Under the pieces are notes generated by a model. It saw nothing but the letters and a program-made list of their open reading frames with translations. It was not told the origin of the DNA and searched no databases. From the NCBI RefSeq assembly GCF_003946405.1, contig NZ_RHOG01000024.1:1-43916 (forward strand): DNA of 43,916 nt. The letters run 5' to 3'. Origin of the DNA: Lacticaseibacillus yichunensis (GTDB lineage: Bacteria; Bacillota; Bacilli; Lactobacillales; Lactobacillaceae). Of the stretch, positions 2,506 to 30,683 are shown piece by piece (position 1 is the stretch's first letter; the number at the start of each line of letters is the position of its first letter). A program made the position numbers and the translations under genes.

Positions 2506-3273
2506 ATGACAGAGAATTCATATACGGCGACCAATGCCAAGGTGATCGATCATTGGGTCAAAACAGGGTGGCAATGGGGTCAGCCAATCAGCCACGAGAC
2601 CTATCAGCGGGCGCAGGCGGGGGGGTGGAAAATGCTGCTGACCCCGACCAAGCCGGTGCCGCGCAATTGGTTTTTCCCGGACATGGCTGGCCGGCAGGTG
2701 CTTGGCCTGGCATCCGGCGGCGGCCAGCAGATGCCGCTTTTTGCCGCGATGGGCGCGGTCGGCACCGTGTTTGACCTGTCCTCGGCGCAGCTGGCCGGCG
2801 ATCGGGAAGTGGCGGCACGCGAACAGTATCCGCTCACCGTTGTGCAAGGGGACATGACGCAGCCGCTGCCGTTTGCAGATGCGTCTTTTGACCTGATCTG
2901 CCAGCCGGTCGCCAATTGCTACATCCAGGATGTCCTGCCACTTTGGCGCGAGTGCGCGCGCATTTTGAAGCCAGGCGGGCGGCTGATGGTCGGGCTGGAC
3001 AACGGACTCAACTACATCGTGGATGAGGCCGAGGAAAAAATCGCGCGCGGGCTGCCCTTTGATCCCATCAAGGACCCTGAGCTGCTGGCCGGCAAGGATG
3101 TGATGGAAGACGGCATCCAATTTTCCCACACGCTGGAGACGCAGCTACGCGGCCAGCTCCAAGCCGGCCTGCAGTTCGTGGACATGTACGAAGATACCAA
3201 TGGCGACGGCCGCCTGGATGCGCTGGGCATCCCCAGTTTTTGGGCGACATTGGCAGAGAAAAAGGGTGCGTAG
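2506..3273 (+). CDS. Class I SAM-dependent methyltransferase
   Basis: This 255-residue protein has the Rossmann methyltransferase pattern: motif I LGLASGGGQQ at 66-75, the acidic end of strand 2 at D90 (VFDLS), motif II GDMTQPLPFADASFDLI near 115, and a post-motif LKPGGRLMVG. It is close to the ubiE/Methyltransf_11 type; the substrate is unknown. GAGGAGG at 2492-2498 precedes ATG 2506. The last five codons and the stop (EKKGA, TAG) lie inside intergenic repeat A, so the natural C-terminus may have been altered by the repeat. It appears to be a single-gene unit between two terminators. Confidence 0.85.
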   Translation: MTENSYTATNAKVIDHWVKTGWQWGQPISHETYQRAQAGGWKMLLTPTKPVPRNWFFPDMAGRQVLGLASGGGQQMPLFAAMGAVGTVFDLSSAQLAGDREVAAREQYPLTVVQGDMTQPLPFADASFDLICQPVANCYIQDVLPLWRECARILKPGGRLMVGLDNGLNYIVDEAEEKIARGLPFDPIKDPELLAGKDVMEDGIQFSHTLETQLRGQLQAGLQFVDMYEDTNGDGRLDALGIPSFWATLAEKKGA

Positions 3274-3406
3274 GCCCGCGAGATGACGGGGCAGGTAACT
3301 TGGCTCGAGTGCTGGATGGCGCACTTCGCCATCGAGTGCACGAGACAGTTAGATGTCCCCGTCATGCGGGCCGAAGCCCAACTGAAAAAGGGTGCGTAGG
3401 CCCGCG
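3259..3406 (-). repeat. Intergenic hairpin repeat, copy A (reverse orientation)
   Basis: One unit of the family also found at 12804-13074, 16108-16256, 23491-23706 and 30534-30683. On the plus strand it is bounded by identical 22-bp direct repeats starting AAAAAGGGTGCGTAG (3259-3280 and 3385-3406), 126 bp apart. Between them is a long hairpin. The outer stem is GGCCCGC 3273-3279 with GCGGGCC 3366-3372, the basal stem ATGACGGGG 3283-3291 with CCCCGTCAT 3357-3365, and the apical stem GATGGCG 3315-3321 with CGCCATC 3327-3333. The left border overlaps the 3' end of the methyltransferase gene. Orientation is called minus relative to copies B, C and D. Confidence 0.9.
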
Positions 3407-3427
3407 GGCAACTTATGAGCCAAAACA

Positions 3428-3466
3428 AAAAACGTCTGACCGCAAGTGAGGTGGTCAGACGTTTTT
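3428..3466. terminator. Bidirectional intrinsic terminator
   Basis: A perfect 14-bp stem, AAAAACGTCTGACC (3428-3441) with GGTCAGACGTTTTT (3453-3466), ends in T-runs on both strands. It can serve the methyltransferase/repeat A transcript on the plus strand and the potassium channel gene on the minus strand. Confidence 0.92.
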
Positions 3467-3480
3467 GATTTCTTGGGGCA

Positions 3481-4239
3481 TTAGCGCTTATTCAGCAGTT
3501 TCCGCTTTTCATGCGCATATTCCTTCGCGCTGATCGCCCCGCTTTTTTGCAAGGCGTCGAAGCGTGCGATCTCCTCAGCCACCGAGGTGCGGGCGGTGCT
3601 TCGATCGTCGGCCAGATAGGCGGTGATCGAGGAGGTCAGGGTACCAATCAAGCCGATGCCGTTGAACATCAAGACGACCGCGGTGATGCGGCCGACCAAG
3701 GTGTGCGGCGAGATGTCGCCGTACCCGACGGTGGTGGCGGTGACGACCGCCCACCACAGCGCGTTGCCGTAATTTTGGTGCTCAGCGATCGCATAGATCA
3801 CGGACACGATAATGATCAGCAGCGCCGAGAGAATCAGGTAATAGATCAACCCACCGCGATGCAGAAAACGCGAGGCATGGGCCCGAAACGTAGCGGTCTT
3901 ATCGCGCAGGCGCGTTACGAGGCGCTGGCGCAATTGGCGTAGCCGTTGCCACACTGTTTTCACCTGCTCGGGCGACAGGACGCCGCTGGTGGGCACCAAG
4001 GCGGACAGGTGGAAGGAATTGCTGGCCAGCAGGTTGGCCTTGCCCTTTGCCAGCCACAGCCGCAGCAGGTAATCCGCGCTAAATAATAGCAGCAGCACCG
4101 CAGTCAGGATGCGCGCCAGCCGACTTGGGGCGGTGATCACACCCAGGAATTCCAGCAGCAGGAGGCCGAGGCTCCCCAGCGTCACGATCAATAGTGTTAG
4201 ATTGTACAGCCGAAAGCCGCGCATCAGTTTTGGATTCAT
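3481..4239 (-). CDS. Two-pore-helix type potassium channel protein with C-terminal SHOCT domain
   Basis: A 252-residue integral membrane protein. Two hydrophobic segments lie near residues 11-35 and 42-62, and a further pair near 131-152 and 183-210 flanks a pore loop. The pore loop carries the K+ selectivity filter TTVGYGD at 169-175. The C-terminal 30 residues (EIARFDALQKSGAISAKEY...) match a SHOCT domain, a short motif often found at protein ends. It likely passes K+ across the cell membrane. Start ATG 4239 has GAGGTG about 9 bp upstream. A second predicted cation channel of the TMEM175 family lies 74 bp upstream on the same strand. Confidence 0.85.
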   Translation of the reverse strand: MNPKLMRGFRLYNLTLLIVTLGSLGLLLLEFLGVITAPSRLARILTAVLLLLFSADYLLRLWLAKGKANLLASNSFHLSALVPTSGVLSPEQVKTVWQRLRQLRQRLVTRLRDKTATFRAHASRFLHRGGLIYYLILSALLIIIVSVIYAIAEHQNYGNALWWAVVTATTVGYGDISPHTLVGRITAVVLMFNGIGLIGTLTSSITAYLADDRSTARTSVAEEIARFDALQKSGAISAKEYAHEKRKLLNKR

Positions 4240-4313
4240 ACAATTTTCACCTCATATCTGCGATAGCGTATCACCTTCGCAACAAGGCGGCATAGCTCGA
4301 GGCGTTTTTTTAC

Positions 4314-4949
4314 TCAATCTGAAGATTTCTGCTTGACGCCGATGTGGAGGACGCGGGAAAAACGCAGGTAGGCGATGAAATGAAACAGCACCCCGGCCGC
4401 AAGCAGCAGGCCCGCCAGCACATTGGAAAAGAGGGCAGCGAGGATCGACGTCAGGTAGATCAGCACGCTGCGAGCGGGGTCGAGGCGAATGCGCTGATAG
4501 TGCTGCTCGATGCCGGTGAGCGAGCGCAACTCGGCGTGATGCTCGAGGTAGCGATACAGCACCAGAAAGGATAGCGAGATCAGCAGGGCCACGATATCAT
4601 AGACGATGATCGCCACGCGAATATCCTGGGTGTTGCCGTTGGTCAGCGCCTCGATGAGCAGCACCATCGCATAATTGACCAAGGTCACCGTGAACAACAC
4701 GATCAGGTTTAGGATGTTAAGGGTGCGGTCCGTTTTTTTCACGTATTGAAAATAATCATGATGAAACAGCCAGCTGGTGCCGACGTAGAAATACGACATG
4801 AGGTACATCAGAAACAGGGGGCCCTGCTGCAGGACCACATGCGTCAAGGATCCCGGCGCGATGGTCTCAGGCTTGAATTCCAGAATCAAGATCGTGAGCA
4901 AAATGGCAAAAACGCCATCGCTCAGCGCGTTGACCCGCTCTTTTGACAT
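4314..4949 (-). CDS. TMEM175/DUF1211 family potassium channel
   Basis: This protein has 211 residues and six hydrophobic segments. Its first helix carries the family signature in the form RVNALSDGVFAI (R5, S10, D11; the usual form is RxxxFSD, so Leu replaces Phe). Bacterial TMEM175 proteins are K+-permeable channels without the classical TVGYG filter. Start ATG 4949 has GGAGGTG 6 bp upstream on the minus strand; an in-frame GTG at 4958 lies inside that site and is rejected. The filter-type K+ channel gene follows, so the pair may form a K+ transport unit, though each could be transcribed separately. Confidence 0.82.
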   Translation of the reverse strand: MSKERVNALSDGVFAILLTILILEFKPETIAPGSLTHVVLQQGPLFLMYLMSYFYVGTSWLFHHDYFQYVKKTDRTLNILNLIVLFTVTLVNYAMVLLIEALTNGNTQDIRVAIIVYDIVALLISLSFLVLYRYLEHHAELRSLTGIEQHYQRIRLDPARSVLIYLTSILAALFSNVLAGLLLAAGVLFHFIAYLRFSRVLHIGVKQKSSD

Positions 4950-4989
4950 GGCGATCACCTCCAGCGTTATTATAAGGCGTCAGGCCACC

Positions 4990-5022
4990 AAAAAACCACC
5001 TGCGCGATCAGGCGGGAGGTGG
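4990..5022 (-). terminator. Intrinsic terminator of the C69 dipeptidase gene
   Basis: Read on the minus strand, CCACCT (5022-5017) pairs with AGGTGG (5001-4996), followed by six T. It begins 21 bp after the dipeptidase stop codon. Confidence 0.8.
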
Positions 5023-5043
5023 CTTCTTTGGTGACTTGACTGG

Positions 5044-6474
5044 TTACAGGTTCTTATCCATATTGAAGGTCAAGTGCGATTGCTCGAGACCCTGCATCAG
5101 ATAGGATGCAATCTCTTTTTTCGTGGTGGCTTTGACTTGGGCCACGATGTCGTAGTTGGCTTGGGTCAGCGCAGCGGTCAGGTCCTTGTCGACCAGCTCG
5201 GCGGTGGCGGCATCTGTTTTCGCCACATGCGCGCGGAACGTCTGGTTGAGGGCGGTCAGATAGTCGCGGTCCTGCTGGATGAACTTGCTGTAATGACTTT
5301 CGACCAGCATGCCGAGGCTGCGGTGCAACCAGTAGGCGGAATCCGTGTCCAGATCCAGCGTCAGTGGCGTCTGGGAGTAGCTCGGATCCGTGTCCGTGGC
5401 GTTGGTGTAAAACGGCACATACGGCGAGTAGGTCGGAATGCCGATGTTCAGCCACATGATCGCGCTTTGGCCAGCCGGCTTGTTGCCGCGCAGCTGCAGA
5501 ATGTGCGAATTCTGCGTGCGGTTGAGGCCGATCGGGCGGTAGCGCAGCTTGTCGGCGTCGGCGCCATGGCCGAGCGGATCAAACCGCGTCTCGTTGTAAT
5601 GGCTGCCGAGGATGTAAGCCATGTCCTCGCGCGTGATTTTGTGGTCGGTGTGCATGATGAACGGCAACTCGGCGCTTTCCGGCTCCTCAGGGGTTTCCGG
5701 GTTCAAAATGTGATGCGCGTACCAGACACGCGGCGTGTTGTAGTGGCGGTCCTTTTCGTTCATCGTGCCGAAAATGTGGCGGAAGTTCCAGCCGGTTTTG
5801 TCAGGATTCAGGTCATTGGCTTCGACAAACTCCTGGATGCCATTGCTCCAGATGAAATTGTCTGGGTCGTCAAAATCAACTTGCTGAATGGCGACTTGGT
5901 TGGCGGCCACGGCATAGGCGTCGTCGGGGATGCGCTGGGCGACCCAGTGATGGCCGGTGACGATCTCCATGTACCAGGCGCTGTTCTTATCGGCAAACAG
6001 GACCGAGTTGCCAGCCGGCGAGCCGTATTGCGCGATCAGCTGGCCCAAGTATTCAACGCCGTGACGGGCGCTTTCGATGAAAGGCAGGACCATGTTGACC
6101 ATCAGATCTTCGTCCAGTCCGTCTTCAACAAGTGGGTCGATGGCAAGTGTGCGTTCGTTGCCATAGGTACTTTCAGTCGCAGACATTGCGACGTTCTTTT
6201 CGTTGATGCCACTTTCTTCGTAATCGCCAAACTGGGCGGTGTCCACGTTTGGCACTGCGTTATAGCGGTAGCCGTTTTCCGGAAGTGGGGCGGTAAAGCC
6301 GTTCAGCGGTGAGGTGACAATCAAGTCTTTTTCACCATGCCATGCCGGATGCATGTAAAAGCGGTGCGGCGCCAGGACGTGGAAGGTGTCATCGTTGCGG
6401 GCGATCATTGTGCTACCATCGATGCTAGCGTTTTTGCCAACGAGGATCGATGTGCATGCGGTCAATTTTTTCAT
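5044..6474 (-). CDS. pepD: C69 family dipeptidase
   Basis: The product has 476 residues, the usual length for lactobacillar PepD dipeptidases. It begins MKKLTACTSILVGKNASIDG, where Cys7 in the ACTSILVGK context is the predicted N-terminal nucleophile of this Ntn-hydrolase family, followed by the conserved STMIARNDD. These cytosolic enzymes split a broad range of dipeptides and feed amino acids from peptide uptake. The frame is open far upstream, but ATG 6474 is chosen because GAGGGA lies 6 bp before it and the family N-terminus starts there. A possible -10 (TACACT, complement of 6504-6509) lies upstream with a weak -35. Lactobacilli often carry several paralogues, so the exact symbol is uncertain. 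Confidence 0.9.
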   Translation of the reverse strand: MKKLTACTSILVGKNASIDGSTMIARNDDTFHVLAPHRFYMHPAWHGEKDLIVTSPLNGFTAPLPENGYRYNAVPNVDTAQFGDYEESGINEKNVAMSATESTYGNERTLAIDPLVEDGLDEDLMVNMVLPFIESARHGVEYLGQLIAQYGSPAGNSVLFADKNSAWYMEIVTGHHWVAQRIPDDAYAVAANQVAIQQVDFDDPDNFIWSNGIQEFVEANDLNPDKTGWNFRHIFGTMNEKDRHYNTPRVWYAHHILNPETPEEPESAELPFIMHTDHKITREDMAYILGSHYNETRFDPLGHGADADKLRYRPIGLNRTQNSHILQLRGNKPAGQSAIMWLNIGIPTYSPYVPFYTNATDTDPSYSQTPLTLDLDTDSAYWLHRSLGMLVESHYSKFIQQDRDYLTALNQTFRAHVAKTDAATAELVDKDLTAALTQANYDIVAQVKATTKKEIASYLMQGLEQSHLTFNMDKNL

Positions 6475-6710
6475 GAGTGTCCCTCTTTTCTCAAGCTGAT
6501 TCCAGTGTACGCCTAAAATGCAGGACGCGAAAGGGCGAGCGGGTATGGTTCTGCGGTATGTCTGATCGTCCTTAGTGCCTTTCCACGACGGACTGACTGC
6601 GTTGCCATTCTTCGTTTTTGATATCCTATCCGATCTGCGGACATATGAACGGACATATTCTGTTGAGATTCGGGTGTCGGGATGCAAGCCCACCGTGCTC
6701 ACTGGCACGC

Positions 6711-6754
6711 AAAAAAGCGGCGCACCAAGCTTTTCAGCTCCGGCACGCCGCTTT
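6711..6754 (-). terminator. Intrinsic terminator of the tRNA-Gln gene
   Basis: On the minus strand AAGCGGCG and CGCCGCTT form a stem followed by six T. It starts 12 bp after the tRNA 3' end. Confidence 0.8.
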
Positions 6755-6765
6755 GCATTTCGTGA

Positions 6766-6836
6766 TTGGGTAGATAGGGATCGAACCTATGATTATGGAT
6801 TCAGAGTCCACTGCGTTACCACTTCGCTACTACCCA
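6766..6836 (-). tRNA. tRNA-Gln, anticodon CUG
   Basis: On the minus strand the acceptor arms TGGGTAG (6836-6830) and CTACCCA (6773-6767) pair fully, with an A discriminator at 6766 and no encoded CCA. The D arm is GCG/CGC. The anticodon stem GTGGA/TCCAT encloses loop CTCTGAA, giving anticodon CTG (reads CAG). The T arm contains GGTTCGATCC. The gene stands alone, with its own promoter and terminator. Confidence 0.93.
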
Positions 6837-6867
6837 ATAAGTGTGAAGCACTTAACGAACGAATAAT

Positions 6868-6896
6868 ATCTTACAAAATACCACGCCAGCTGTCAA
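6868..6896 (-). promoter_or_regulatory. Promoter of tRNA-Gln
   Basis: A consensus -35 TTGACA (complement of 6891-6896), a 17-bp spacer, and -10 TAAGAT (complement of 6868-6873). The tRNA 5' end lies 31 bp downstream. Confidence 0.85.
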
Positions 6897-6986
6897 CCGC
6901 ATTTGCAGACTTTTTTAAAAAGTGGCGTTTTTTCGGCAAACGCGGCGCTAGTGGGTCTTTTGGCCGGCGTGCTAAACTAGAGGTGG

Positions 6987-7175
6987 TCATTGGTGATGGT
7001 CGAGCAACCAGAGAAACCCTGCGTAGCCGATGCAAAAGGCGGCGAAGATCAACAGAGCCAAGGCGGCGAAGCTGAGCCAGCGCAGGCCAAAGCTCAAGGC
7101 GCCCAGCCAGAGCAAGCCGGCGAGCAGACACGCGCGCAGAGTGCGGGCCAGCAGCTTTTTGACCGGCTCACTCAA
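6987..7175 (-). CDS. Small membrane protein of unknown function
   Basis: A 62-residue protein with two hydrophobic segments separated by a short basic turn (LRW), ending WLLDHHQ. I do not recognise the family. The best start is TTG 7175 (MSEPVKKLLARTLRA), which overlaps the stop codon of the gene before it by 8 bp and has GAGG about 6 bp upstream. Upstream codons in frame lie deep inside that gene and are less likely. The tight overlap implies translational coupling with the 7168-7488 gene. It could be a membrane anchor or partner of that protein, which is only a guess from position. Confidence 0.55.
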   Translation of the reverse strand: MSEPVKKLLARTLRACLLAGLLWLGALSFGLRWLSFAALALLIFAAFCIGYAGFLWLLDHHQ

Positions 7176-7488
7176 ATGAGACCTCGATGAACAGATGGCC
7201 AGAGCCAGCAATGTGGCTCGTGGTCATCCAGATCTCACCTGGTACCTGGGGGTCGTCGGGCGCAATCAGCTCCGCCAGCCAGCGCACCAATTTCTGATTG
7301 CTGACAATGAAGTCATCCGGCAGGCGAAAGGCGTTGAGGCGTTCCTCGGGAAAAAGTTCCGCTTGGCATGGAAAAATGACTTGGTCGGAAAGGGCAAACG
7401 CGATGACATTTGAATAGCCTCGGCGAATCAAGGTGACCTGCTGAGGATGGGTGTGCAAATATTCAAGAACTTGCGTGGGAATTTTCAT
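7168..7488 (-). CDS. Hypothetical protein
   Basis: A soluble-looking 106-residue protein starting MKIPTQVLEYLHTHPQQV and ending GSGHLFIEVSFE, with no signal peptide or membrane segment. I do not recognise a family. A clear GGAGG lies 7 bp before ATG 7488 on the minus strand, and the gene overlaps a small membrane protein gene downstream, so it is probably real. It is divergent from the histidine phosphatase gene, with 88 bp between the two starts. Confidence 0.7.
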   Translation of the reverse strand: MKIPTQVLEYLHTHPQQVTLIRRGYSNVIAFALSDQVIFPCQAELFPEERLNAFRLPDDFIVSNQKLVRWLAELIAPDDPQVPGEIWMTTSHIAGSGHLFIEVSFE

Positions 7489-7576
7489 CGGGTTGCCTCC
7501 GTCTTAAGTCGCTGGTTGCCCTGCGCCTTGCATGATAGCATGAAAATAGCTCGATGTATAGAATGGAGGATGCGAG

Positions 7577-8263
7577 ATGACAGTCCATTTTTATCTAGTG
7601 CGTCACGGCGAAACACAGATGAATCGCAAGCAGCACATGCAAGGGGTGACGGATGCGCCGCTGACTGAAAAGGGGGTCGCGCAGGCCGACGCATTGGGTG
7701 CGGCGTTGGCCAAGGTGCCGTTTGCCCAGGCATACAGCTCGGACCGAAAGCGCGCTGTCGCCACCGCGCAGCATATTTTGGCGGCCGCGCCGACTGCGCC
7801 TATCTTGATGCGCCTGGCCAGCCTGCGCGAGGATTATTTTGGAGGACTGGAAGGCAAGAGTTCCGCCCAGGTGATGCGCCTGTCCGTTCAGCGCTATGGT
7901 CTGCGCGCGATGCCCCAGGTGTGGCAAGGCGGCGACCGTTTTGCGAAATTGGTGCGCAATTTTCAAAAGCTGGATGACACGGGCCAGGCGGAGAGCTTGC
8001 CGGCCCTGCAAATGCGGATGCGCGACGTGTTCCAGCGCCTCGCGGATCAAGCGCCGGCTTCTGGCAACGTGCTGGTGGTCGGGCACGGGCTGAGTTTGTC
8101 GGCCATGATCGAGTGGGTCAAGCCGCAGTCAGTGCCGATCGGTTTACTGAAAAACACTAGTGTGACGCGGCTTGATTTTGATCAAACCGCGGGTACCTGG
8201 CAAGTGGTGGCGGTGAACCTGACCGCTTCGCAGGCGGTCGCACTGGCGGCGCCTATTCTATAG
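7577..8263 (+). CDS. Histidine phosphatase family protein (phosphoglycerate mutase-like)
   Basis: The 228-residue product carries the catalytic RHG motif in LVRHGET (R9, H10, G11, E12) and the second catalytic His in VVGHGLSL (H170). E85 in LREDYFG is the likely acid. The sequence MQGVTDAPLTEKGVAQA is the usual substrate-side segment. Members are broad-specificity phosphatases or 2,3-bisphosphoglycerate-dependent mutases; the length and loose core fit a phosphatase better than glycolytic GpmA. GGAGG at 7565-7569 precedes ATG 7577. It is a single gene followed by a GC-rich hairpin. Confidence 0.87.
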   Translation: MTVHFYLVRHGETQMNRKQHMQGVTDAPLTEKGVAQADALGAALAKVPFAQAYSSDRKRAVATAQHILAAAPTAPILMRLASLREDYFGGLEGKSSAQVMRLSVQRYGLRAMPQVWQGGDRFAKLVRNFQKLDDTGQAESLPALQMRMRDVFQRLADQAPASGNVLVVGHGLSLSAMIEWVKPQSVPIGLLKNTSVTRLDFDQTAGTWQVVAVNLTASQAVALAAPIL

Positions 8264-8277
8264 AAGAAACAGAAATG

Positions 8278-8316
8278 ACGGGTCTGCTTACTGGCCGCGG
8301 CCAGAGGCGGACCCGT
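8278..8316 (+). terminator. Possible terminator after the phosphatase gene
   Basis: ACGGGTC (8278-8284) pairs with GACCCGT (8310-8316) around an inner palindrome CTGGCCGCGGCCAG. The T-run after it is short (TTTGT), so termination strength is uncertain. Confidence 0.5.
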
Positions 8317-8360
8317 TTGTCGTCCAAATATGACTTTTTTGTGAAAATCGAGACAGAGCA

Positions 8361-8416
8361 TTGCACCGCATGAGCATGACGCGTAGAATGACAACTTGTC
8401 ACATGACAGAACGTCA
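8361..8416 (+). promoter_or_regulatory. Promoter and tandem operator of the TetR-ABC exporter operon
   Basis: A -35 TTGCAC (8361-8366), 17-bp spacer and -10 TAGAAT (8384-8389) precede the regulator gene. Starting at the last base of the -10 are two palindromes in the same phase, 15 bp apart: TGACAACTTGTCA (8389-8401, perfect) and TGACAGAACGTCA (8404-8416, imperfect). Their position over the transcription start is that of a repressor operator, so autoregulation by the TetR protein is likely. Confidence 0.65.
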
Positions 8417-8438
8417 CACCCCAATGAAAGGAGCGGCC

Positions 8439-9104
8439 ATGCCTAAATCCACCTTCTATCGGCTTGCAGATGAAAAGCGCCAACGCCTGATCGTCGCGGC
8501 GTACAACGAGTTTTCTCGCGCGCCGTTTGCCGATGCCAGTATCAGCAATATTATCAAAGAAGCCGGCATTCCGCGCGGCAGTTTTTATCAATATTTTGAA
8601 GATAAAAGTGATGTCTTCTTTTACCTGCTGGATCTGATTCGGCAAAGTGCCAACGTTTGGCTGAAAGACGCGCTGAGCGCCAATCACGGCGATCTGTTTG
8701 CCACCATGCACGAGGTGGTCGAGCGGCTGGTCGAGACGATCACCACTGGGCCGTACCACGCCTTTTATAGCAACCTATTCATGTATATGGATTTTCATTC
8801 CGCGGATAAGATGGCGAGGGAAGGCACTGGGCCGGTCATGCCGCCGCACGGCCCTAAGAAAGGCGAGGTCTCGTCGTTTTTGTTGGAAAATGTGGACCGC
8901 GACCGGCTGCGGGTCAAGGCAGATGATGATCTGCGCGTCTTGATCCATCAGCTCTTTGGGATGTTGATGCAATCGATCGGCCATTATTTCAATCAGCTGG
9001 CCAGTGGGGCACAGCTCAGCTCGGATGAATTAAAACGGCGTCTGGACCAGCAACTTGATTGGTTGCAGTTCGGCGTCGGTGAAACAAAGGAGGAGAAGCA
9101 ATGA
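8439..9104 (+). CDS. TetR/AcrR family transcriptional regulator
   Basis: A 221-residue protein with an N-terminal TetR DNA-binding domain: residues about 10-60 contain the helix-turn-helix FADASISNIIKEAGIPRGSF followed by the typical YQYFEDKSDVF. The C-terminal helical domain, which would bind the inducer, is not recognisable at sequence level. ATG 8439 has AAAGGAG 5 bp upstream; longer in-frame starts would run through the operator region and are rejected. Its stop overlaps the start of the first exporter gene (ATGA), so it is co-transcribed with the exporter and probably represses it until a drug or bile-like ligand binds. Confidence 0.9.
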   Translation: MPKSTFYRLADEKRQRLIVAAYNEFSRAPFADASISNIIKEAGIPRGSFYQYFEDKSDVFFYLLDLIRQSANVWLKDALSANHGDLFATMHEVVERLVETITTGPYHAFYSNLFMYMDFHSADKMAREGTGPVMPPHGPKKGEVSSFLLENVDRDRLRVKADDDLRVLIHQLFGMLMQSIGHYFNQLASGAQLSSDELKRRLDQQLDWLQFGVGETKEEKQ

Positions 9105-10831
9105 TCAAACTCGCAAAAGGCAGGGTCTCCCTGTGGGCGATCCTGGCCGCGGTCGGGTTCATGATCGTGCAGGTGATCTCGAGTCTTTACCTGCCCAATC
9201 TGACCGCGGACATCGTGAACAACGGGGTCGTGACTGGCGATATCGATTATATCTGGAAGACCGGGTATAAAATGATCGCCTTTGCGATCTTAAGTGTGGT
9301 CGCCAGTGTCGCCAACGTGTACGTGGCGTCCAAGGTCTCACAAAAACTGGGCCAGCGCATTCGCTCAGATGTTTATCGCAAAGTGATCAATTATTCGCAT
9401 GATGAGATGGATCAGATCGGCGCAAGCAGCCTGATCACCCGGACCACCAACGACGTGACACAGATTCAAAACGTCTGGGTCATGATCTTGCGGATGATGA
9501 TCATGGCCCCGATCATGCTGGTTGGCGCGGCTTTTCTGGCTTACCAAAAGAGCCCGGCACTGACCAACATCTTCTTGATCGTTTTGCCGATCATGGCCGT
9601 GTTCATGGGCGTGGTGATGTATTTCGCCGTGCCACTCTTCCGCGCGATGCAGAAGAAAACAGATAACATCAACTTGGTCTTCCGTGAAGGCCTGACCGGG
9701 GTCCGCGTCATTCGCGCCTTTCGTCAGGATCAGTTCGAACAGGACCGCTTTGATGGCGTCAACAAGGATTACACCAACAACGCGGTGAAAGTCTTTTCCA
9801 TCATGGCCTTGATGTTTCCGGTGATGACGCTGATCATGTCCGGGACGAACATCGGCATCACCTGGTGGGGCGGCCACTTGATCGCCCAGCAATCTCTTGA
9901 AACAGGGAACATGATCGCGTTTTTGACATACGCGATGCAGATTCTCATGAGTTTCATGATGCTGTCGATGATTTTCGTATTCATTCCGCGTGCCCAGGCG
10001 TCTGCGGTCCGAATCAACGAAGTGCTGGCACAGACCACGACGCTTCAGTCCTCGGCGACGCCAAAAGAAATGGCGACGGATAAGCCGCAGTTGCGCTTTG
10101 ATCACGTTAAGTTCCGTTATGCCGGCGCTGAAGAACCTGCGCTGACCGACATCGATTTTGACATGCATGCCGGGCAAACATTGGCAATCATCGGCGGGAC
10201 CGGCGCCGGGAAATCGACCTTGGTCAACCTGATGCCACGCTTTTACGACGTGGAAGAAGGCGCTGTTGAAGTCGATGGCCAAAATGTGAAGGATCTGGAT
10301 CTGCAAGAGTTGCATCGCCAGATCGCGTTTGTGCCGCAAAAGGCCAACCTGTTCACGGGCACCGTGCGCGACAACATGAAATACGGCAATGAAGACGCGA
10401 CGGATGATGAGATCTGGCATGCACTTGAAGTGGCGCAGGCCAAGGATTTCATCAGTGAAAATCCGGAAGGGCTGGATTATCACGTCGAGCAAGGCGGCGG
10501 CAACTTCTCCGGTGGCCAGCGTCAGCGCTTGGCGATCGCCCGCGCCTTGGTCAAGGACGCCTCAGTTTATGTGTTTGATGACGATTTTTCCGCGCTGGAC
10601 TTTAAGACGGATGCTGAATTGCGTCAGGCACTGAAAGAGGATGCCAAGATCTCCTCGCGTATCGTCGTGATCGTTGGCCAGCGTGTCTCCACCGTGGCCG
10701 ACGCCGATACGATCCTCGTGCTGGAAGATGGCAAGATGGTCGGCCGCGGCACGCATGCCGAGCTCAAGGCAACCAATGATACCTATCAAGAGATCATCAA
10801 GTCGCAGATCAGGGAAGGGGACGAAGCGTAA
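9101..10831 (+). CDS. Heterodimeric ABC exporter subunit with degenerate ATPase site (LmrC-like)
   Basis: A 576-residue half-transporter: six transmembrane helices in about the first 310 residues, then an ABC ATPase. Walker A is GGTGAGKST at 365-373 and the signature is NFSGGQ at 468-473. The Walker B region reads VYVFDDDFSALD, with D494 in place of the catalytic Glu, and the H-loop has Q527 instead of His (GQRVST). This is the degenerate-site pattern of LmrC and TM287. AGGAGG precedes ATG 9101. The next gene encodes the partner and overlaps by one base (TAATG). It probably exports lipophilic drugs or similar compounds. Confidence 0.92.
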   Translation: MIKLAKGRVSLWAILAAVGFMIVQVISSLYLPNLTADIVNNGVVTGDIDYIWKTGYKMIAFAILSVVASVANVYVASKVSQKLGQRIRSDVYRKVINYSHDEMDQIGASSLITRTTNDVTQIQNVWVMILRMMIMAPIMLVGAAFLAYQKSPALTNIFLIVLPIMAVFMGVVMYFAVPLFRAMQKKTDNINLVFREGLTGVRVIRAFRQDQFEQDRFDGVNKDYTNNAVKVFSIMALMFPVMTLIMSGTNIGITWWGGHLIAQQSLETGNMIAFLTYAMQILMSFMMLSMIFVFIPRAQASAVRINEVLAQTTTLQSSATPKEMATDKPQLRFDHVKFRYAGAEEPALTDIDFDMHAGQTLAIIGGTGAGKSTLVNLMPRFYDVEEGAVEVDGQNVKDLDLQELHRQIAFVPQKANLFTGTVRDNMKYGNEDATDDEIWHALEVAQAKDFISENPEGLDYHVEQGGGNFSGGQRQRLAIARALVKDASVYVFDDDFSALDFKTDAELRQALKEDAKISSRIVVIVGQRVSTVADADTILVLEDGKMVGRGTHAELKATNDTYQEIIKSQIREGDEA

Positions 10832-12720: not shown

Positions 12721-12726
12721 GCACGC

Positions 12727-12775
12727 AAAAAAGATCCGGCCTCGTCGCATTGCGGCGGTGGCCGGATCTTTTTTT
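12727..12775 (+). terminator. Intrinsic terminator of the ABC exporter operon
   Basis: AAAAAAGATCCGGCC (12727-12741) pairs with GGCCGGATCTTTTTT, an at least 12-bp stem with a T-run. It begins 6 bp past the stop codon. Confidence 0.93.
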
Positions 12776-12803
12776 GTTGTTCGAGTGAGAGGACAGTGTC
12801 GGT

Positions 12804-12951
12804 ATCCCGCGCACCTGCGCACCCTTTTGCAGTTGGGCTCCGGCTCGCAGGGGTGGGACATTTAGCTGACCTAGGCACTCGGTGGCAAGGGACGCCACCA
12901 AGCACCTAGGCCAAGCTAGCTGCCCACCCCTAAACGCGAGCCTGCGCACCC
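12804..12951 (+). repeat. Intergenic hairpin repeat, copy B1 (forward)
   Basis: First of two tandem units. It begins with a partial 3' arm ATCCCGCGCACCTGCGCACCC (12804-12824), then TTTTGCAGTTGGGCTCC. The hairpin follows: outer stem GGCTCGC 12842-12848 with GCGAGCC 12936-12942, basal stem AGGGGTGGG 12849-12857 with CCCACCCCT 12923-12931, and apical stem GGTGGC 12881-12886 with GCCACC 12894-12899. The outer stem differs from that of the leading partial arm (GCGCACC), which instead matches unit B2. Confidence 0.88.
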
Positions 12952-13074
12952 TTTTGCAGTTGGGCTCCGGTGCGCATGGGGGGACATCTAACTGTCTCGT
13001 GTGCTCGAGGCGAAGTGCGCCTCAATCCCCCGAGCCAAGTTAGCTGCCCCGCCATCCCGCGCACCTGCGCACCC
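12941..13074 (+). repeat. Intergenic hairpin repeat, copy B2 (forward)
   Basis: Second tandem unit; its TGCGCACCCTTTTGCAGTTG box starts 127 bp after that of B1, and the closing box 123 bp later. The outer stem is GGTGCGC 12969-12975 with GCGCACC 13059-13065. Inner pairing includes TAACT/AGTTA and CTCG/CGAG, and the apical stem is GAGGCG 13007-13012 with CGCCTC 13018-13023. Together with B1 it fills most of the gene-free stretch between the exporter terminator and the VOC gene. Confidence 0.88.
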
Positions 13075-13133
13075 TCAAGTCGTCAACTCAGCTTTTTTCC
13101 CCGGGGGCGTGTATGCTTTGCGCAAAGGGGGCG

Positions 13134-13994: not shown

Positions 13995-14009
13995 CGAAAA
14001 GGAGCAACT

Positions 14010-15008: not shown

Positions 15009-15011
15009 ATA

Positions 15012-15020
15012 TGCTAGAAT
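15012..15020 (+). promoter_or_regulatory. Extended -10 promoter of manA
   Basis: TGCTAGAAT is an extended -10 element 35 bp before the manA start, with no good -35. The palindromic core AAGCGCTT at 14987-14994, in the -35 region, resembles the centre of a CcpA cre site, so carbon catabolite control is possible but unproven. Confidence 0.5.
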
Positions 15021-15054
15021 GAGGCCTGTACGAAATAGGATAGGAGTGAACATT

Positions 15055-16029: not shown

Positions 16030-16031
16030 GC

Positions 16032-16069: not shown

Positions 16070-16107
16070 GTGTGTTGCGGTTAGTTGGAGTCAGTTGGCC
16101 TGAGCCG

Positions 16108-16256
16108 CCATCCCGTGGCCGGTGCACTGTGTAGTTGGGCTCCGCCGAGCAGGTCTGAGACGTCTAGCTGTCTTGTTCACTCGAGGCAAATTGCGGCCTC
16201 AAGCGCCCAAGCCAGACTATCCGCTCAGACCTAAACGCTCGGCTCCGCACCCTTTT
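16108..16256 (+). repeat. Intergenic hairpin repeat, copy C (forward, most diverged)
   Basis: A single unit preceded by a degenerate partial arm (CCATCCCGTGGCCGGTGCAC). The outer stem is GCCGAGC 16144-16150 with GCTCGGC 16237-16243, the basal stem AGGTCTGAG 16151-16159 with CTCAGACCT 16224-16232, and the apical stem GAGGC 16183-16187 with GCCTC 16196-16200. Both arms differ from the other copies but still pair. Its right end, CCGCACCCTTTT, abuts the murT stop codon at 16257-16259. Confidence 0.85.
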
Positions 16257-17826: not shown

Positions 17827-17887
17827 GGAGCCAGTGTTTTTTGCTCAAACGCCCCTTGTTTGTGCAGAATAAGGAAGGAGCTTCACC

Positions 17888-18469: not shown

Positions 18470-18477
18470 GAGGCAAC

Positions 18478-20380: not shown

Positions 20381-20419
20381 AATCGATCTGAACCAAGGAA
20401 CGAGACGAGGGGATATATA

Positions 20420-21430: not shown

Positions 21431-21442
21431 ATGACAATGTTC

Positions 21443-21451
21443 TGATATGAT
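21443..21451 (+). promoter_or_regulatory. Extended -10 promoter of glyA
   Basis: TGATATGAT forms an extended -10 (TATGAT at 21446-21451), 29 bp before the glyA start. No strong -35 is seen. Confidence 0.55.
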
Positions 21452-21480
21452 GAGGCTATCTTGAAAATGGAGGGCTTTTT

Positions 21481-22713: not shown

Positions 22714-22736
22714 GAAAGGTTTTGTGCACTTACAGT

Positions 22737-22771
22737 TGCGCCTTGTTGCCCCGCGTGGGCGGCAAGGCGCA
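22737..22771 (+). promoter_or_regulatory. Strong intergenic hairpin between glyA and upp
   Basis: TGCGCCTTG (22737-22745) pairs with CAAGGCGCA (22763-22771), extended by TTGCC/GGCGG, to give a 14-bp stem with loop CCGCGTG. No T-run follows, and the upp ribosome binding site lies 12 bp downstream. It could stabilise mRNA or modulate upp translation. Confidence 0.55.
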
Positions 22772-22799
22772 TGTCATATGATCGAAGGAGGACCCTTGC

Positions 22800-23429
22800 A
22801 TGGGCAAATTTACGGTTTTGAACCACCCGCTGATTCAGCATAAGCTGACCTTGATTCGGGATAAGAATGCAGGCACCAAAGAGTTTCGCGAGATCGCAAA
22901 CGAGATTGCGGAGTTGATGGTGTACGAGATCACGCGCGACCTGCCACTGGAGGACGTCGAGATCGAGACCCCGATGGGCAAAACGGTTCAAAAGCAGCTC
23001 GCTGGTAAGAAGCTTTGCATCGTGCCGATCTTGCGCGCAGGATTGGGCATGGTCGATGGCGTTTTGGAACTCATTCCGGCAGCCAAGGTCGGCCACGTCG
23101 GCATGTACCGCGATGAAAAGACGCTTAAGCCGCACGAGTATTTCGTAAAGATGCCTGCCGACATCGACCAGCGTGACATGATCATTGTCGATCCAATGCT
23201 GGCGACCGGGGGCTCCGCTAACATGGCCATCGAGGCGCTGAAGAAGCGCGGCGCCCAGAGCATTCGCCTGGTCGTTTTGGTTGCAGCGCCTGAAGGGGTC
23301 AAGGCTGTTCAAGACGAAAATCCGGATGTCGACATCTACGCAGCGGCGCTTGATGATCATTTGAATGAAAATGGCTATATCGTGCCAGGACTCGGCGATG
23401 CAGGCGACCGGTTGTTTGGCACAAAGTAA
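22800..23429 (+). CDS. upp: Uracil phosphoribosyltransferase
   Basis: A 209-residue enzyme that joins uracil to PRPP to give UMP in pyrimidine salvage. The PRPP-binding loop is [10 protein letters not shown] at 131-140, with the preceding [14 protein letters not shown] and the C-terminal [15 protein letters not shown] typical of Upp. GAAGGAGG at 22784-22791 precedes ATG 22800. A good terminator follows, then repeat D and the ATP synthase operon. The glyA-upp-atp order is common in lactobacilli. Confidence 0.97.
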
Positions 23430-23442
23430 AGATGCTACTATT

Positions 23443-23470
23443 AAGGTTGAGTGAAAGCTCAACCTTTTTT
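23443..23470 (+). terminator. Intrinsic terminator of upp
   Basis: AAGGTTGAG (23443-23451) pairs with CTCAACCTT around loop TGAAAG, followed by a T-run to 23470. Confidence 0.92.
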
Positions 23471-23490
23471 GTTGCCGTTGTTTGTATAGC

Positions 23491-23706
23491 CGCGAGTCTG
23501 CACACCGTTTTGCAGTTGGGCTGCGCGGGGCAGGGGCGGGACAGGTAGTCGACCCGGTCGCCCTTGGCCTTTGCTTCGGCCTGTTCGCGTTCGGGGCAGG
23601 GCTGGGACAGGTAGTCGACCCGGTCGCCCGATGGCCAAGTGCGCCATCAACCGCCCAGGCCGAACTATCTGCCCACCCCAAAGCGCCCCGCTCCGCACCC
23701 TTTTTT
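23491..23706 (+). repeat. Intergenic hairpin repeat, copy D (forward, with internal duplication)
   Basis: One unit preceded by a partial arm (CGCGAGTCTGCACACCG). The outer stem is GCGGGGC 23525-23531 with GCCCCGC 23685-23691, and the apical stem is GATGGC 23630-23635 with GCCATC 23643-23648. The 5' arm is partly duplicated: a 26-bp block starting GGGACAGGTAGTCGACC occurs at 23538-23563 and again at 23604-23629, 66 bp apart. This explains why the box-to-box distance is about 193 bp, not about 126 bp. Confidence 0.85.
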
Positions 23707-23917
23707 CGCTTACGATTTTCTAAAGTTGATGGGATGACTAGCATTTCGTACTTACAAGGTGTAAAACAGGGGAGTTGCGGTTCAGTGTCACGCGCTTGCG
23801 CGACGTCCGCCAAACACATGTCAAACTGCACCGCCATGCGGCTGAAAAGAAGCCGCTTTCACTGAAAAAAACGATGAAAAGCCCCTTGTGGTAGGCATTA
23901 AAAAACCATGAATCGTT
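23707..23917. other. Gene-free stretch upstream of the atp promoter
   Basis: I see no supported gene here. Two small hairpins are present: CGCGC/GCGCG around 23792-23803, and GCGGCT (23840-23845) with AGCCGC (23853-23858). Neither has a T-run on the plus strand. An open frame on the minus strand across 23738-24034 has no family resemblance and would run back over the atp promoter. Confidence 0.4.
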
Positions 23918-23946
23918 TTGTCTTTTCATGTGAATGGTGTTACAGT
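23918..23946 (+). promoter_or_regulatory. Promoter of the ATP synthase operon
   Basis: A -35 TTGTCT (23918-23923), exact 17-bp spacer and -10 TACAGT (23941-23946). It leaves a leader of about 120 nt before atpB, which contains a small GCCGC/GCGGC hairpin. Confidence 0.65.
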
Positions 23947-24072
23947 AATGGTTGTGTTTTGGGGGATCTGTATCCGTCATACCGCGATTTTTAAAACTCG
24001 CGCGCTGGCAAGCACGGCCGCTTGCGGCTTTCATACATACTAGCGAGTCAGTTTTGCAAGGAGGTGAATTCT

Positions 24073-25021
<949 letters not shown>

Positions 25022-25059
25022 GCACCGACTATCTTGTCTAGAAAGGAGTGGCATGATCA

Positions 25060-25537
25060 ATGGCTACATTAGGTGATACGCTTTTTCTGGTCGCGACGTT
25101 TGTTGTCCTGCTTATTTTGGTCGGGCATTTTGCGTGGAAACCAGTCACCAAGATCATGACAGAGCGCCAGACCAAGGTCGATGGTGACCTGGATTACGCC
25201 GAAAACGCGCGTAATGAGGCGCAGGCCCTCCAAGCAAAGCGTGAGGCAGAGCTCAAGAACTCCCGCGCCGATGCCGTCAAGATCGTCAATACGGCGAAGG
25301 AAAACGGTGAAAAGCAGCGTCAGCAAATGCTCGATGCCACGACCCAAGAAGTCGCGACATTGAAGCAAAATGCGAGTGCCGACATCGCCCAAGAGCGTCA
25401 AGATGCGCTTGCTAGTGCGAAGGACGACGTTGCCGAACTCTCCGTTGCAATCGCAACGAAGATCATCGGTAAGGAACTGAACGCAGCCGACCAGCAGTCG
25501 CTGATCGACGATTACATCAAAGGCTTAGGTGATGCCA

Positions 25538-25551
<14 letters not shown>
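25060..25551 (+). CDS. atpF: F1Fo ATP synthase subunit b
   Basis: A 163-residue peripheral-stalk subunit: one N-terminal membrane helix (about residues 4-24) followed by a long charged alpha-helical coiled-coil region (about 30-145). AAAGGAG at 25042-25048 precedes ATG 25060; the ATG at 25053 is out of frame. It holds subunit delta and the F1 head fixed relative to subunit a. The end overlaps atpH by 14 bp. Confidence 0.95.
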
Positions 25552-27620
<2,069 letters not shown>

Positions 27621-27631
27621 GGAGGTGCCGC

Positions 27632-28558
27632 ATGGCTGAATCATTGATGGACATCAAACGCCAGATCGCTTCGACCAAGAAAACGGGTCAGATCACGCAG
27701 GCCATGCAGATGGTCTCCGGGGCAAAATTGACCCAGATCGAAAAGCGAGCTGGTGAATATCAGCTCTATGCCGGTAAAGTGCGTGAGATCGTCACGCACT
27801 TGGCGGCCGCTCAGCTGCTCGCCATCGAACGTGAACAAGCCACAGAGCTTGCCGGCGATGGCAACAAAGCACGCCTGCAGTTGGCCACACTTTTGGAGCA
27901 GCGTCCTGTCAAGAAAACGGGTTACCTGGTCATCACCTCTGACCGTGGCCTTGTCGGGGCGTATAACAGCACGATTCTGAAGGCAATGATGCAGATGATC
28001 AAGCAAGATCATCAGGCTGCCGATGACTATGTGATCATGGCTGTCGGCGGTGTCGGCGCGGACTTTTTCAAAGCCCGCGGTGTCAATCTCGCCTATGAGT
28101 ACCGCGGGGTCTCTGATATCCCGACCTTCAACGAGGTCCGGGAGATCGTTAAGACGGCGGTCACGATGTTTGATAGTGGTGTCTTTGATGAGCTTTATGT
28201 CTGCTACAACCATCATGTCAATTCGCTGACATCGGCGTTCCGTGCAGAACGGATGCTGCCGATCTCTGACCTTGATGTCGATGAAGTCTCAGACAAGCCG
28301 ATCGAATACATCACCGAACCGGATCCAGAACAAGTGCTTGAAGCGATTCTCCCGCAGTATGCTGAAAGTCTGATCTTCGGGGCCATTATGGACGCGAAGA
28401 CGGCGGAGCATGCCGCGTCGACCACCGCGATGAAGAGTGCGACCGATAACGCAAATGATCTGATCTCTCATCTGTCCGTGACCTATAACCGGGCCCGGCA
28501 GTCGGCCATCACGACCGAGATCACCGAGATCGTTGGCGGTGCTGCAGCACTTGAATAA
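27632..28558 (+). CDS. atpG: F1Fo ATP synthase subunit gamma
   Basis: A 308-residue central-shaft subunit. The N-terminal helix ([20 protein letters not shown]) and C-terminal helix ([20 protein letters not shown]) that form the rotating coiled coil are both conserved, with a Rossmann-like middle ([14 protein letters not shown]). AAGGAGG precedes ATG 27632. It couples rotation of the c ring to the catalytic sites of beta. Confidence 0.96.
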
Positions 28559-30034
<1,476 letters not shown>

Positions 30035-30048
30035 GGAGGCGAGGGCCT

Positions 30049-30480
30049 GTGGCTGATGAAACAACACCGATGACGGTCAACATCGTGACGCCGGATGGTA
30101 AAGTCTATGATCACCATGCCAAAATGGTCATCGTGAAGACGACTTCTGGCGAAATGGGGCTGATGGCCAATCACGCGCCAGTCGTTGCGCCACTGGAGAT
30201 CGGTGAGGTGCGTGTGCGCCGGGTCGATAATCCAGGCCACGAAGACTCGATCGCGGTCAACGGCGGGTTCATGGAGATGTCGAACAACGTCGTCTCTGTG
30301 GTCGCCGATTCCGCTGAACGTGCGCGTGATATCAACTTGTCCCGTGCCGAAGCGGCTCGTCAGCGCGCAGAAAAGCGCATTGAAGAAGCCAAAACGACAC
30401 AGGATACAGATGAACTGCAGCGTGCCCAAGTGGCCCTGCAGCGCGCCATCAATCGTATCAACGTCAAAAACGGCAAATGA
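30049..30480 (+). CDS. atpC: F1Fo ATP synthase subunit epsilon
   Basis: A 143-residue subunit with an N-terminal beta-sandwich (VNIVTPDGKVYDHHAKMVIV, ANHAPVVAPL) and a C-terminal two-helix arm (LSRAEAARQRAEKRIEEAK). The arm can act as an intrinsic inhibitor of ATP hydrolysis. The start is GTG 30049, with AAGGAGG 10 bp upstream. It is the last gene of the operon and is followed within 10 bp by a terminator. Confidence 0.95.
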   Translation: MADETTPMTVNIVTPDGKVYDHHAKMVIVKTTSGEMGLMANHAPVVAPLEIGEVRVRRVDNPGHEDSIAVNGGFMEMSNNVVSVVADSAERARDINLSRAEAARQRAEKRIEEAKTTQDTDELQRAQVALQRAINRINVKNGK

Positions 30481-30489
30481 TCATATTGC

Positions 30490-30527
30490 GACAGTCCACT
30501 GTGTCCAGCACAGTGGGCTGTCTTTTT
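30490..30527 (+). terminator. Intrinsic terminator of the atp operon
   Basis: GACAGTCCACTGTG (30490-30503) pairs with CACAGTGGGCTGTC (30509-30522), one G-U pair, with a 5-nt loop and five T. Confidence 0.92.
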
Positions 30528-30533
30528 GATTCA

Positions 30534-30683
30534 GGGTGCGAAGGTGCGCGGGATGGTGGAACAGCTAGGTTGGCTCAGGCGCTTGGTGGCGCCTCTTGCC
30601 GCCGAGTGCCTGAGACGCCTAGATGTTTCCAACATGCGCACCGGAACCCGACTAAGAAAGGGTGCGAAGGTGCGCGGGATGGT
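30534..30683 (-). repeat. Intergenic hairpin repeat, copy E (reverse orientation)
   Basis: One unit bounded by identical 24-bp direct repeats starting GGGTGCGAAGGTGCGCGG (30534-30557 and 30660-30683), 126 bp apart as in copy A. The outer stem is GGTGCGC 30543-30549 with GCGCACC 30636-30642, the middle stem CTCAGGC 30574-30580 with GCCTGAG 30608-30614, and the apical stem GGTGGC 30585-30590 with GCCGCC 30598-30603. It begins 6 bp past the atp terminator. The remaining sequence to the next gene, about 110 bp, holds only a promoter. Confidence 0.9.

Follow-up and report, generated by a model that had tools for sequence, protein, structure and literature searches.

What kind of sequence keeps its fold while its letters change, and how does it come to lie at one intergenic site after another? 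The question is raised by a family of repeats in the window, a stretch of 43,916 nucleotides from Lacticaseibacillus yichunensis in which the gene order upp-atp-mreB is also seen. The initial annotation described six units at five loci, and a profile search located all of them there. The units and the remnants beside them are listed below, with bit scores from model R1.

3264-3382, plus strand: full unit U1, with box, outer arm GGCCCGC, apical hairpin, GCGGGCC and GAAGCCCAAC (124.4 bits)
3390-3408, plus strand: box and outer-arm remnant 3' of U1, preceded by the linker TGAAAAA (by eye)
12804-12831, minus strand: linker TGCAAAA (12825-12831), identical to that between U3 and U2, then a box and outer-arm remnant (12804-12824)
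12832-12951, minus strand: full unit U2, the top R1 match of the genome (133.3 bits)
12952-12958, minus strand: linker TGCAAAA between U3 and U2
12959-13074, minus strand: full unit U3, the first in sense direction of a two-unit array (111.6 bits)
16108-16133, minus strand: degenerate box and arm remnant (by eye)
16134-16252, minus strand: full unit U4, 4 nt past the stop codon of a 457-aa ORF (MurT_C match)
23491-23582, minus strand: duplicated 3' half of U5 and a box remnant (by eye)
23583-23700, minus strand: U5, a full-length match with a rearranged 3' end (94.5 bits)
30534-30652, plus strand: full unit U6, directly past a terminator-like hairpin (by eye) 3' of the ATP synthase epsilon gene
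30653-30683, plus strand: linker TAAGAAA and a box/arm remnant whose 24 nt repeat the 5' end of U6 exactly (by eye)

Read in sense direction, a unit opens with the box AGGGTGCGNAG, followed by the outer and middle arms, the apical hairpin, the 3' arms and GRAGCCCRACT; a linker, 2-9 nt long if its length is taken from the last T of that motif, then leads to the next box. The common order of parts had been recognised before, but the minus-strand units had been described in reverse, and the closing box assigned to each unit is the box of the next unit or of a remnant; in 77 of 99 arrays of the genome, a box lies within 11 nt past the final unit. The locus at 23491-23706 contains one unit, to which a duplicated 3' half is added. 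The consensus runs from GGGTGYGNAG, behind an A, to GRAGCCCRAC, before a T (the ends are also written as GRGYGCGNAG, behind an A, and GNAGCNCGTT). An A precedes the box in 189 of 194 units, a T follows CCCRAC in 184 of 194, and arrays start precisely, 96 of 99 having an A directly before their first box. The ORF at 2506-3273, upstream of U1, has its stop codon inside the U1 box (GCGTAG). An intrinsic terminator was rejected by eye, as the sense strand has no T run behind the hairpin and, on the opposite strand, the box separates the stem from the T run.

The profile search, with the surrounding loci searched again, revealed at least 194 distinct matches in the L. yichunensis genome. They form 99 head-to-tail arrays, none of mixed strand, and extend far beyond the six copies first described. 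The figure is a minimum because only the loci around the best 150 matches were searched again, and it includes a match of 66 nt and one of 51 bits (L163) that may belong to another repeat. Model R1 was built from 27 of the 29 listed units, the third unit of L008 and U6 being omitted. A second profile, R2, found the family in 45 of the 395 genomes that were sampled from the order. Within the genus, three genomes of 3.0 Mb carry 139 (G216), 142 (G232) and at least 150 (G011) units; copy number reaches about 200 per genome in lactobacilli, and some relatives are also carriers. Tallies under strict filters are lower bounds, since G049 and G216 gave no R1 match under them and both are matched by R2.

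The initial annotation did not recognise the family, and this agrees with our searches. In Rfam release 15, the sole match in the window is a tRNA away from the units, and the four matches among 20 loci of 20 genomes (two T-box, a tRNA and an L21 leader) do not fit the family; three have no unit overlap, and the T-box on L086 lies across the position of a unit, on the opposite strand. No earlier description was found in a literature search, and neither a phage search with one G011 unit as query nor a plasmid search with four other queries gave a match.

The alignments confirmed compensatory change in the stems beyond chance. Among 147 distinct aligned units of the own genome, 98.2% of the stem cells are paired. 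Over 500 shuffles the value is 80.4 +/- 0.3, and moving the 3' partner along by 1-3 columns lowers it to 43.0% or less; both sides have changed in 26 of 35 pairs. Across genera, 93.3% are paired against 61.1% after shuffling, and all 35 pairs have changed on both sides. These alignments comprise the best 150 of 195 matches (A3) and 43 matches from 32 sources at E <= 5e-7 (A4), a limit set to keep antisense matches out, with the units of four plasmid loci left out; both were fitted to R1, so their pair counts lean towards structure. As a correction to the three-tier hairpin of the initial annotation, the 35 pairs form three helices in the within-genome count and five in the cross-genus alignment, and an outermost pairing between the box and the 3' end has to be added. 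There, C6-G covaries with T6-A: 120 of 150 units have C with GCCC and 15 have T with ACCC, while the remaining 15 include two with T and GCCC and one with C and ACCC. With up to one mismatch allowed, box AAGGGTGCGNAGG has 182 occurrences in the genome and its reversed control 7; this count and the excess of paired cells over shuffles and slid partners exclude chance.

Selection on an RNA or a cruciform had been suggested, and the structural part of this suggestion is supported. On the sense strand, G.U makes up all or most of three pairs (147, 102 and 130 of 147 units), and G.T cells number 168 against 31 A.C cells; outside columns 17/107 and 46/84 the counts are 55 and 30, a modest strand asymmetry of the outer helices. 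As a G.U on the sense strand is an A.C mismatch on the other strand of a cruciform, the wobble pairs favour one folded sense strand over a cruciform.

Units have spread singly from locus to locus, and their flanks did not travel with them. In 15 equal-length pairs of units from different arrays with at least 94% identity, some units recurring in several pairs, similarity reaches only 1-3 nt beyond GGG on the left, 1 nt in 11 pairs, and 1-4 nt beyond CCCRAC on the right, 1 nt in 12 pairs. The linker, in turn, belongs to the locus and not to the unit. In counts that use 92 arrays and the best 150 units, consecutive linkers are identical in 25 of 42 cases (shuffled mean 0.84, maximum 7), while the cores of neighbours with identical linkers are less than 80% identical in 17 of 27 pairs, random pairs averaging 70%. 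The N of the box agrees in 26 of 40 neighbouring pairs with unrelated cores (34% expected), and on average left flanks are similar to the first linker of their array (over 62 arrays, the shared suffix has a mean of 2.40 against 1.59, reached in 0 of 5000 shuffles). On the other hand, unusual box heptamers recur in the box that follows in only 19 of 37 cases, which counts against a mobile element, and the varying length of the linkers, together with left flanks that often differ from them, gives no clear sign of a target duplication of fixed length. Single copies in other genera presented no clear duplication by eye.

Many units have been gained or lost since the split from the 94%-identical sister species L. 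mingshuiensis (G132). Of the 92 arrays, 33 could be compared, with both flanks matching 28 stretches of the sister genome; 28 of their 71 units have a counterpart, and at 15 of the 33 loci the two species have no unit in common at 86% identity or more. Most unit-less sites keep a box remnant, so many of these differences may be deletions. In L. mingshuiensis, the U4 site has a box remnant only and the U6 site a box and arm remnant only. Plasmids differ in the same manner: L234 and L235 have different units at the same site between near-identical flanks, and L233 carries two differing units, both absent from L236 and L237. Scars from which the core was deleted also occur on plasmids; in the stretches of the own genome that were scanned, only 2 distinct ones were seen. 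Unit-precise dispersal, locus-specific linkers and turnover between sister species and between plasmids attest to the mobility of the units, which the initial annotation had missed.

On balance, we favour the interpretation of the repeats as a family of non-autonomous mobile elements of about 122 bp that is recognised as a folded single strand. A trans-acting enzyme would pick the hairpin out of single-stranded DNA, or out of RNA that is later copied, and insert it behind an A, often directly past a stop codon or terminator. Alternatively, insertion would occur beside a resident unit, with duplication of the locus-specific linker and box. The stems would covary because only copies that still fold moved on or were kept, and arrays may contract by slippage between the direct repeats of linker and box, leaving box remnants.

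The same structure might instead serve host transcripts in cis, as a 3'-UTR or intercistronic hairpin for mRNA stability or processing, spread by ordinary duplication and kept for its function. We consider this rather unlikely, although the conserved, asymmetric internal loops between freely varying stems look RNA-like, and in 22 of 92 arrays the end of a sense gene falls in the interval from 15 nt before the first unit to 22 nt inside it. Five plasmid copies lie between genes of a PTS operon, and at 22 orthologous units, all in A3, stems have changed at 44 of 1538 positions against 83 of 1061 unpaired ones, with compensatory change in 8 of 35 altered pairs, where our own estimate would predict about 0.2. 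Orientation speaks against such a role, as there is no sense bias: 19 arrays are sense and 30 antisense between codirectional genes, 20 are convergent, 19 divergent and 4 could not be assigned, with home-made gene calls by codon score that overlap 7 of the 92 arrays. The loci that share no similar unit with the sister species argue in the same direction. Passive spread by slippage, unequal recombination, ectopic gene conversion and template-switch palindrome correction, with no dedicated enzyme, is also unlikely. Linker and box are short direct repeats of roughly 15 bp that are suited to slippage, identical neighbouring units exist (arrays A13 and A51), and the box remnants behind arrays and the core-deleted plasmid scars agree with it. 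However, palindrome correction would erase both the asymmetric internal loops and the fixed G.U pairs, which survive, and whole units reappear at other loci, their ends exact to within a few bases, although random pairs are on average only 70% identical.

Passive spread also gains from the search for an enzyme, since the two families tested, the Y1 transposase (PF01797) and the reverse transcriptase (RVT_1), are not common to all high-copy genomes, which counts against enzyme-driven mobility. Each was found in 7 of 20 element-bearing genomes and gave no match in 13, among them G011, G232 and G216 in both cases and, for RVT_1, G000 and G132. Mobilisation by a Y1 HUH transposase, as for REP/RAYT or IS200/IS605-type elements, is therefore disfavoured and very improbable, even though the GNAG flanking the stem resembles the GTAG tag of REPs and G000 has two Y1_Tnp genes, one adjoining an ORF that by eye resembles TnpB. 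The unit of about 120 nt, against 20-40, does not fit such elements either, nor does the lack of replication-strand bias (92 arrays of G011, p = 0.40; 36 of G232, p = 0.73), assessed for the listed matches of these two genomes with the origin assumed at position 1; this lack of bias also counts against the favoured mobile element. Retroposition, by which the RNA of a unit is reverse transcribed at its target so that one end is precise and the other truncated, would account for the A before the first box and the box remnant after the last unit, but deletion explains the remnants too and, given the distribution of RVT_1, we regard it as most improbable. If the family is a mobile element, it may, tentatively, represent a new class across the Bacilli, in which the folded strand (RNA or single-stranded DNA) would be the unit of selection. 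A dedicated enzyme, other than a Y1 transposase or a reverse transcriptase, would insert hairpins beside resident ones and duplicate the linker and box of the locus, so that arrays would grow in a CRISPR-like manner.

Several known systems resemble the family in part. CRISPR arrays consist of constant repeats and unrelated foreign spacers beside cas genes; linker and box also alternate as a constant repeat with varied inserts, but these inserts are members of one structured family and not foreign DNA. Integron attC sites are hairpin-forming units in arrays of one orientation, as here, and travel with their cassette, whereas the linker stays with the locus while cores differ. The MIRU of Mycobacterium are tandem units of conserved sequence between genes, often abutting stop codons, and by description our units are similarly tandem, intergenic and often at stop codons; to our knowledge, MIRU are not known for covarying hairpins. 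RUP of Streptococcus pneumoniae and EFAR of Enterococcus are MITE-like intergenic repeats that resemble the family by description only. MITEs have terminal inverted repeats of 15-30 bp and a target-site duplication of fixed length; here the whole unit is an imperfect inverted repeat, and its outermost 8 nt (AGGGTGCG against AGTYGGGC from the other end) pair imperfectly. Listed full-length matches of about 113-123 nt (the whole unit being about 120-122) are too short for a transposase and fall within the 70-300 bp without coding capacity by which the MITE definition in PMC3733652 is given. The same source defines REPs as palindromes of 20-40 bp with a GTAG or CGTC tag at one end; compared with its description of REPs and BIMEs, the family has in common a palindrome flanked by GNAG, a large number of copies and an extragenic, sometimes clustered location, but differs in a unit of about 120 nt, a multi-tier stem and a tag with variable N (PMC3733652). 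REPs also go with a Y1 tyrosine transposase in the genome, and G011, G232 and G216 have no PF01797 match. The bcr1-bcr3 repeats of Bacillus cereus, by their descriptions in PMC3733652 and PMC3446304, are likewise short, non-coding, intergenic, multicopy repeats beside genes that behave as mobile elements, with some copies in UTRs or between operon genes. From bcr, RUP and EFAR our family differs in its highly variable sequence with a kept fold, in its head-to-tail arrays with locus-specific linkers, and in outermost ends that are not perfect terminal inverted repeats of 15-30 bp.

The units are abundant in three 3.0-Mb genomes of one genus, yet have no Rfam family that fits. They offer an unusually clean natural case of covariation, in which the sequence has drifted widely and the stems have stayed paired across genera. 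Since the linkers are locus-specific, the order of insertion and the turnover of units can be read from the arrays. The family is a source of polymorphism among strains and plasmids of food bacteria, and a direct way to seek a new kind of strand-folding transposition.

The box pattern AGGGTGCGNAG presented 182 matches in the L. yichunensis genome, against seven for a reversed control. Read in one orientation, the units share a common order of parts, in which this box is followed by the 5′ arm, the middle arm, the apical hairpin, the matching 3′ arms and GRAGCCCRACT. All six units (U1–U6) that the initial annotation placed in the window are present at their loci; U5 (window positions 23491–23706) appears by eye to be rearranged, unlike the other five, with its 3′ half duplicated. 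The genome-wide search proposed in that annotation reached far beyond these six. A covariance model trained on 27 of the 29 units in hand (R1) found at least 150 full-length matches. The 86 loci covering the R1 arrays, which are head-to-tail runs of units, were searched again and yielded 195 matches (E ≤ 1e-9) at 194 distinct places in 99 arrays, a count that is confined to those loci, and thus a lower bound for the genome, and that includes one 51-bit match (locus L163), which may be another repeat, and one match of just 66 nt. The arrays comprise 38 single units, 38 of two, 16 of three, four of four, two of five and one of six, and none of the 99 mixes strands.

A different repeat of about 160–190 bp, with the hairpin arm GGAACTGGGACAAAACTTTTGTTTTGTCCCAGTTCC at L163, lies at ~424–609 of that locus (L. 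yichunensis, C47) and at ~6257–6424 of L182 in the sister species L. mingshuiensis 117-1. Present in one sister species, it is missing from the corresponding site in its counterpart, and it reaches just 46–51 bits with R1. It may be a distant cousin of the units or a separate mobile repeat.

Matches to R1 (E ≤ 1e-4) were found in 26 of 301 genomes of the family sample, among them 13 of 15 listed from the same genus. With a cross-genus model (R2, E ≤ 0.001), matches occurred in 45 of 395 genomes across the order and in 4 of 398 in the phylum sample, both counts including L. yichunensis itself. Copy numbers reach at least 150 in G011, 142 in G232, 139 in G216, 69 in G062 and 38 in G418, and 14 plasmid records carry units (nine from Pediococcus and five from Lacticaseibacillus). 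Beyond the order but within the class, loci L251, L252, L254 and L255 hold distant members, some of them in tandem, whose core is strongly palindromic and whose 3′ end is GAGCTGGACA or similar. No Rfam family fits the units in the window and in the scanned loci from 20 genomes. Among the open-licence papers listed, none gives an account of the family in its title or at the start of its abstract, and an earlier account may exist elsewhere. Text of PMC2267715, PMC3733652, PMC3446304 and PMC3496567 was also consulted, and in passages of the last CRISPR repeats are the sole repeat type mentioned.

The covarying stems described initially stood above shuffled and slid controls both within the genome and across genera, in alignments that were both fitted to R1 and so lean towards structure. 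Among 147 distinct units of L. yichunensis, 98.2% of stem cells pair (80.4 ± 0.3 shuffled), 26 of 35 pairs changed on both sides (19.9 shuffled) and the covariation score was 0.543 (0.210 shuffled; at most 0.101 for slid partners); none of 500 shuffles reached any of five covariation measures. The cross-genus alignment (42 distinct rows, selected at E ≤ 5e-7) gave 93.3% against 61.1% shuffled, both-sided change in 35 of 35 pairs and a score of 0.814 (0.201 shuffled; slid partners at most 0.133). In addition, the box and the 3′ end of the same unit pair with each other, C at box position 6 being accompanied by GCCC in 120 of 150 units, T by ACCC in 15 and other combinations in 15.

The suggestion of an RNA or cruciform structure holds as to the fold, and its double-stranded form is the less favoured one. 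At majority Watson-Crick pairs, 168 G·T cells were counted against 31 A·C; a few apical pairs supply much of this excess, and helices 1 and 2 without columns 17/107 and 46/84 present 55 against 30 in our own count. At three pairs, all or most of the units have G·U (147, 102 and 130 of 147). Since these places would be A·C on the other arm of a cruciform, a single folded strand fits better, and the asymmetry fits RNA and single-stranded DNA alike.

The units have been dispersed. Fifteen pairs of equal-length units at different arrays are at least 94% identical, some units belonging to several pairs, and their shared stretch stops 1–3 nt to the left of GGG, at 1 nt in 11 of the 15 pairs, and 1–4 nt to the right of CCCRAC, at 1 nt in 12 of the 15. 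An A precedes the box in 189 of 194 places, and a T follows CCCRAC in 184 of 194. The linkers of 2–9 nt between units are a property of the locus: consecutive linkers are identical in 25 of 42 cases (shuffled mean 0.84, maximum 7), and 17 of 27 neighbouring pairs with identical linkers have cores below 80% identity (average for random pairs, 70%). Among 40 adjacent pairs with unrelated cores, 26 have the same box N (34% expected), and 19 of 37 unusual box heptamers reappear in the box that follows. The left flank and first linker share a suffix of 2.40 against 1.59 shuffled, which none of 5000 shuffles reached (62 arrays). The left flank is unlike the linker at several loci (A01, A10, A36, A76), so the data fall short of showing a simple target duplication of fixed length.

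L. mingshuiensis 117-1 presents 94% identity over long matches, with gene order kept in the region tested. In the 33 of 92 arrays with both flanks matched, 28 of 71 L. yichunensis units find a counterpart in the matched interval at 86% identity or more, and 15 of 33 loci have none. Deletion is frequent, since a box remnant persists at most sites lacking a unit; at one site (L190 against L291), the sister species has a unit and L. yichunensis no recognisable box. Plasmid loci L234 and L235 carry different units between near-identical flanks, and both of the differing units of L233 are missing from plasmid loci L236 and L237. Scars with the hairpin core lost occur at L236, L237 and L241 on plasmids, with only two distinct ones in the scanned stretches of L. 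yichunensis. Depending on the plasmid, a single intercistronic position of a mannose-type PTS operon is occupied by one or the other of two different full units or by a 3′-end remnant alone.

Plasmid site in the PTS operon: loci L232, L234, L235, L238 and L239; L. paracasei, Pediococcus inopinatus and Lactiplantibacillus plantarum

On balance, we lean slightly towards a non-autonomous mobile unit, which would be recognised as a folded single strand and moved by a putative trans-acting factor, with slippage shaping the arrays; of this reading, dispersal is the part that the data show directly. Neither of the two enzyme families tested is common to the high-copy genomes: Y1 transposase (PF01797) and reverse transcriptase (PF00078) each occur in 7 of 20 element-bearing genomes, and G011, G232 and G216 match neither. 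No replication-strand bias of orientation was seen in two genomes. L. yichunensis has two IS200/IS605-like Y1 transposase copies, at L031 (324–1911) and L032; at L031 a 150-aa ORF adjoins a 384-aa ORF resembling TnpB by eye.

Among 92 arrays, 20 lie between convergent and 19 between divergent genes, 19 in sense and 30 in antisense orientation between codirectional genes, and four are unclassified. In 22 of 92, the end of the sense gene upstream falls in the stretch from 15 nt ahead of the first unit to 22 nt inside it, and an antisense upstream gene starts within 15 nt in two. By eye, A03, A55, A76, A77, A80 and A87 follow directly a terminator-like T run ending GATTCA, and in other genera (L064, L065, L078, L089; not counted) the unit starts a few nucleotides from an apparent stop codon. 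At L086, an Rfam T-box leader (1460–1808, minus strand; 349 nt for 219 model positions) encloses a unit (1501–1614, plus strand), perhaps an insertion inside the leader; the T-box at L084 stops about 30 nt short of a unit.

At 22 orthologous units, differences affect 44 of 1538 stem positions against 83 of 1061 unpaired sites, and the 35 changed pairs comprise 8 compensatory, 13 wobble, 13 broken and one double change without pairing. The fewer stem changes and the compensatory pairs indicate that the fold is maintained even while a unit stays in place, and a local function would also be compatible with this.
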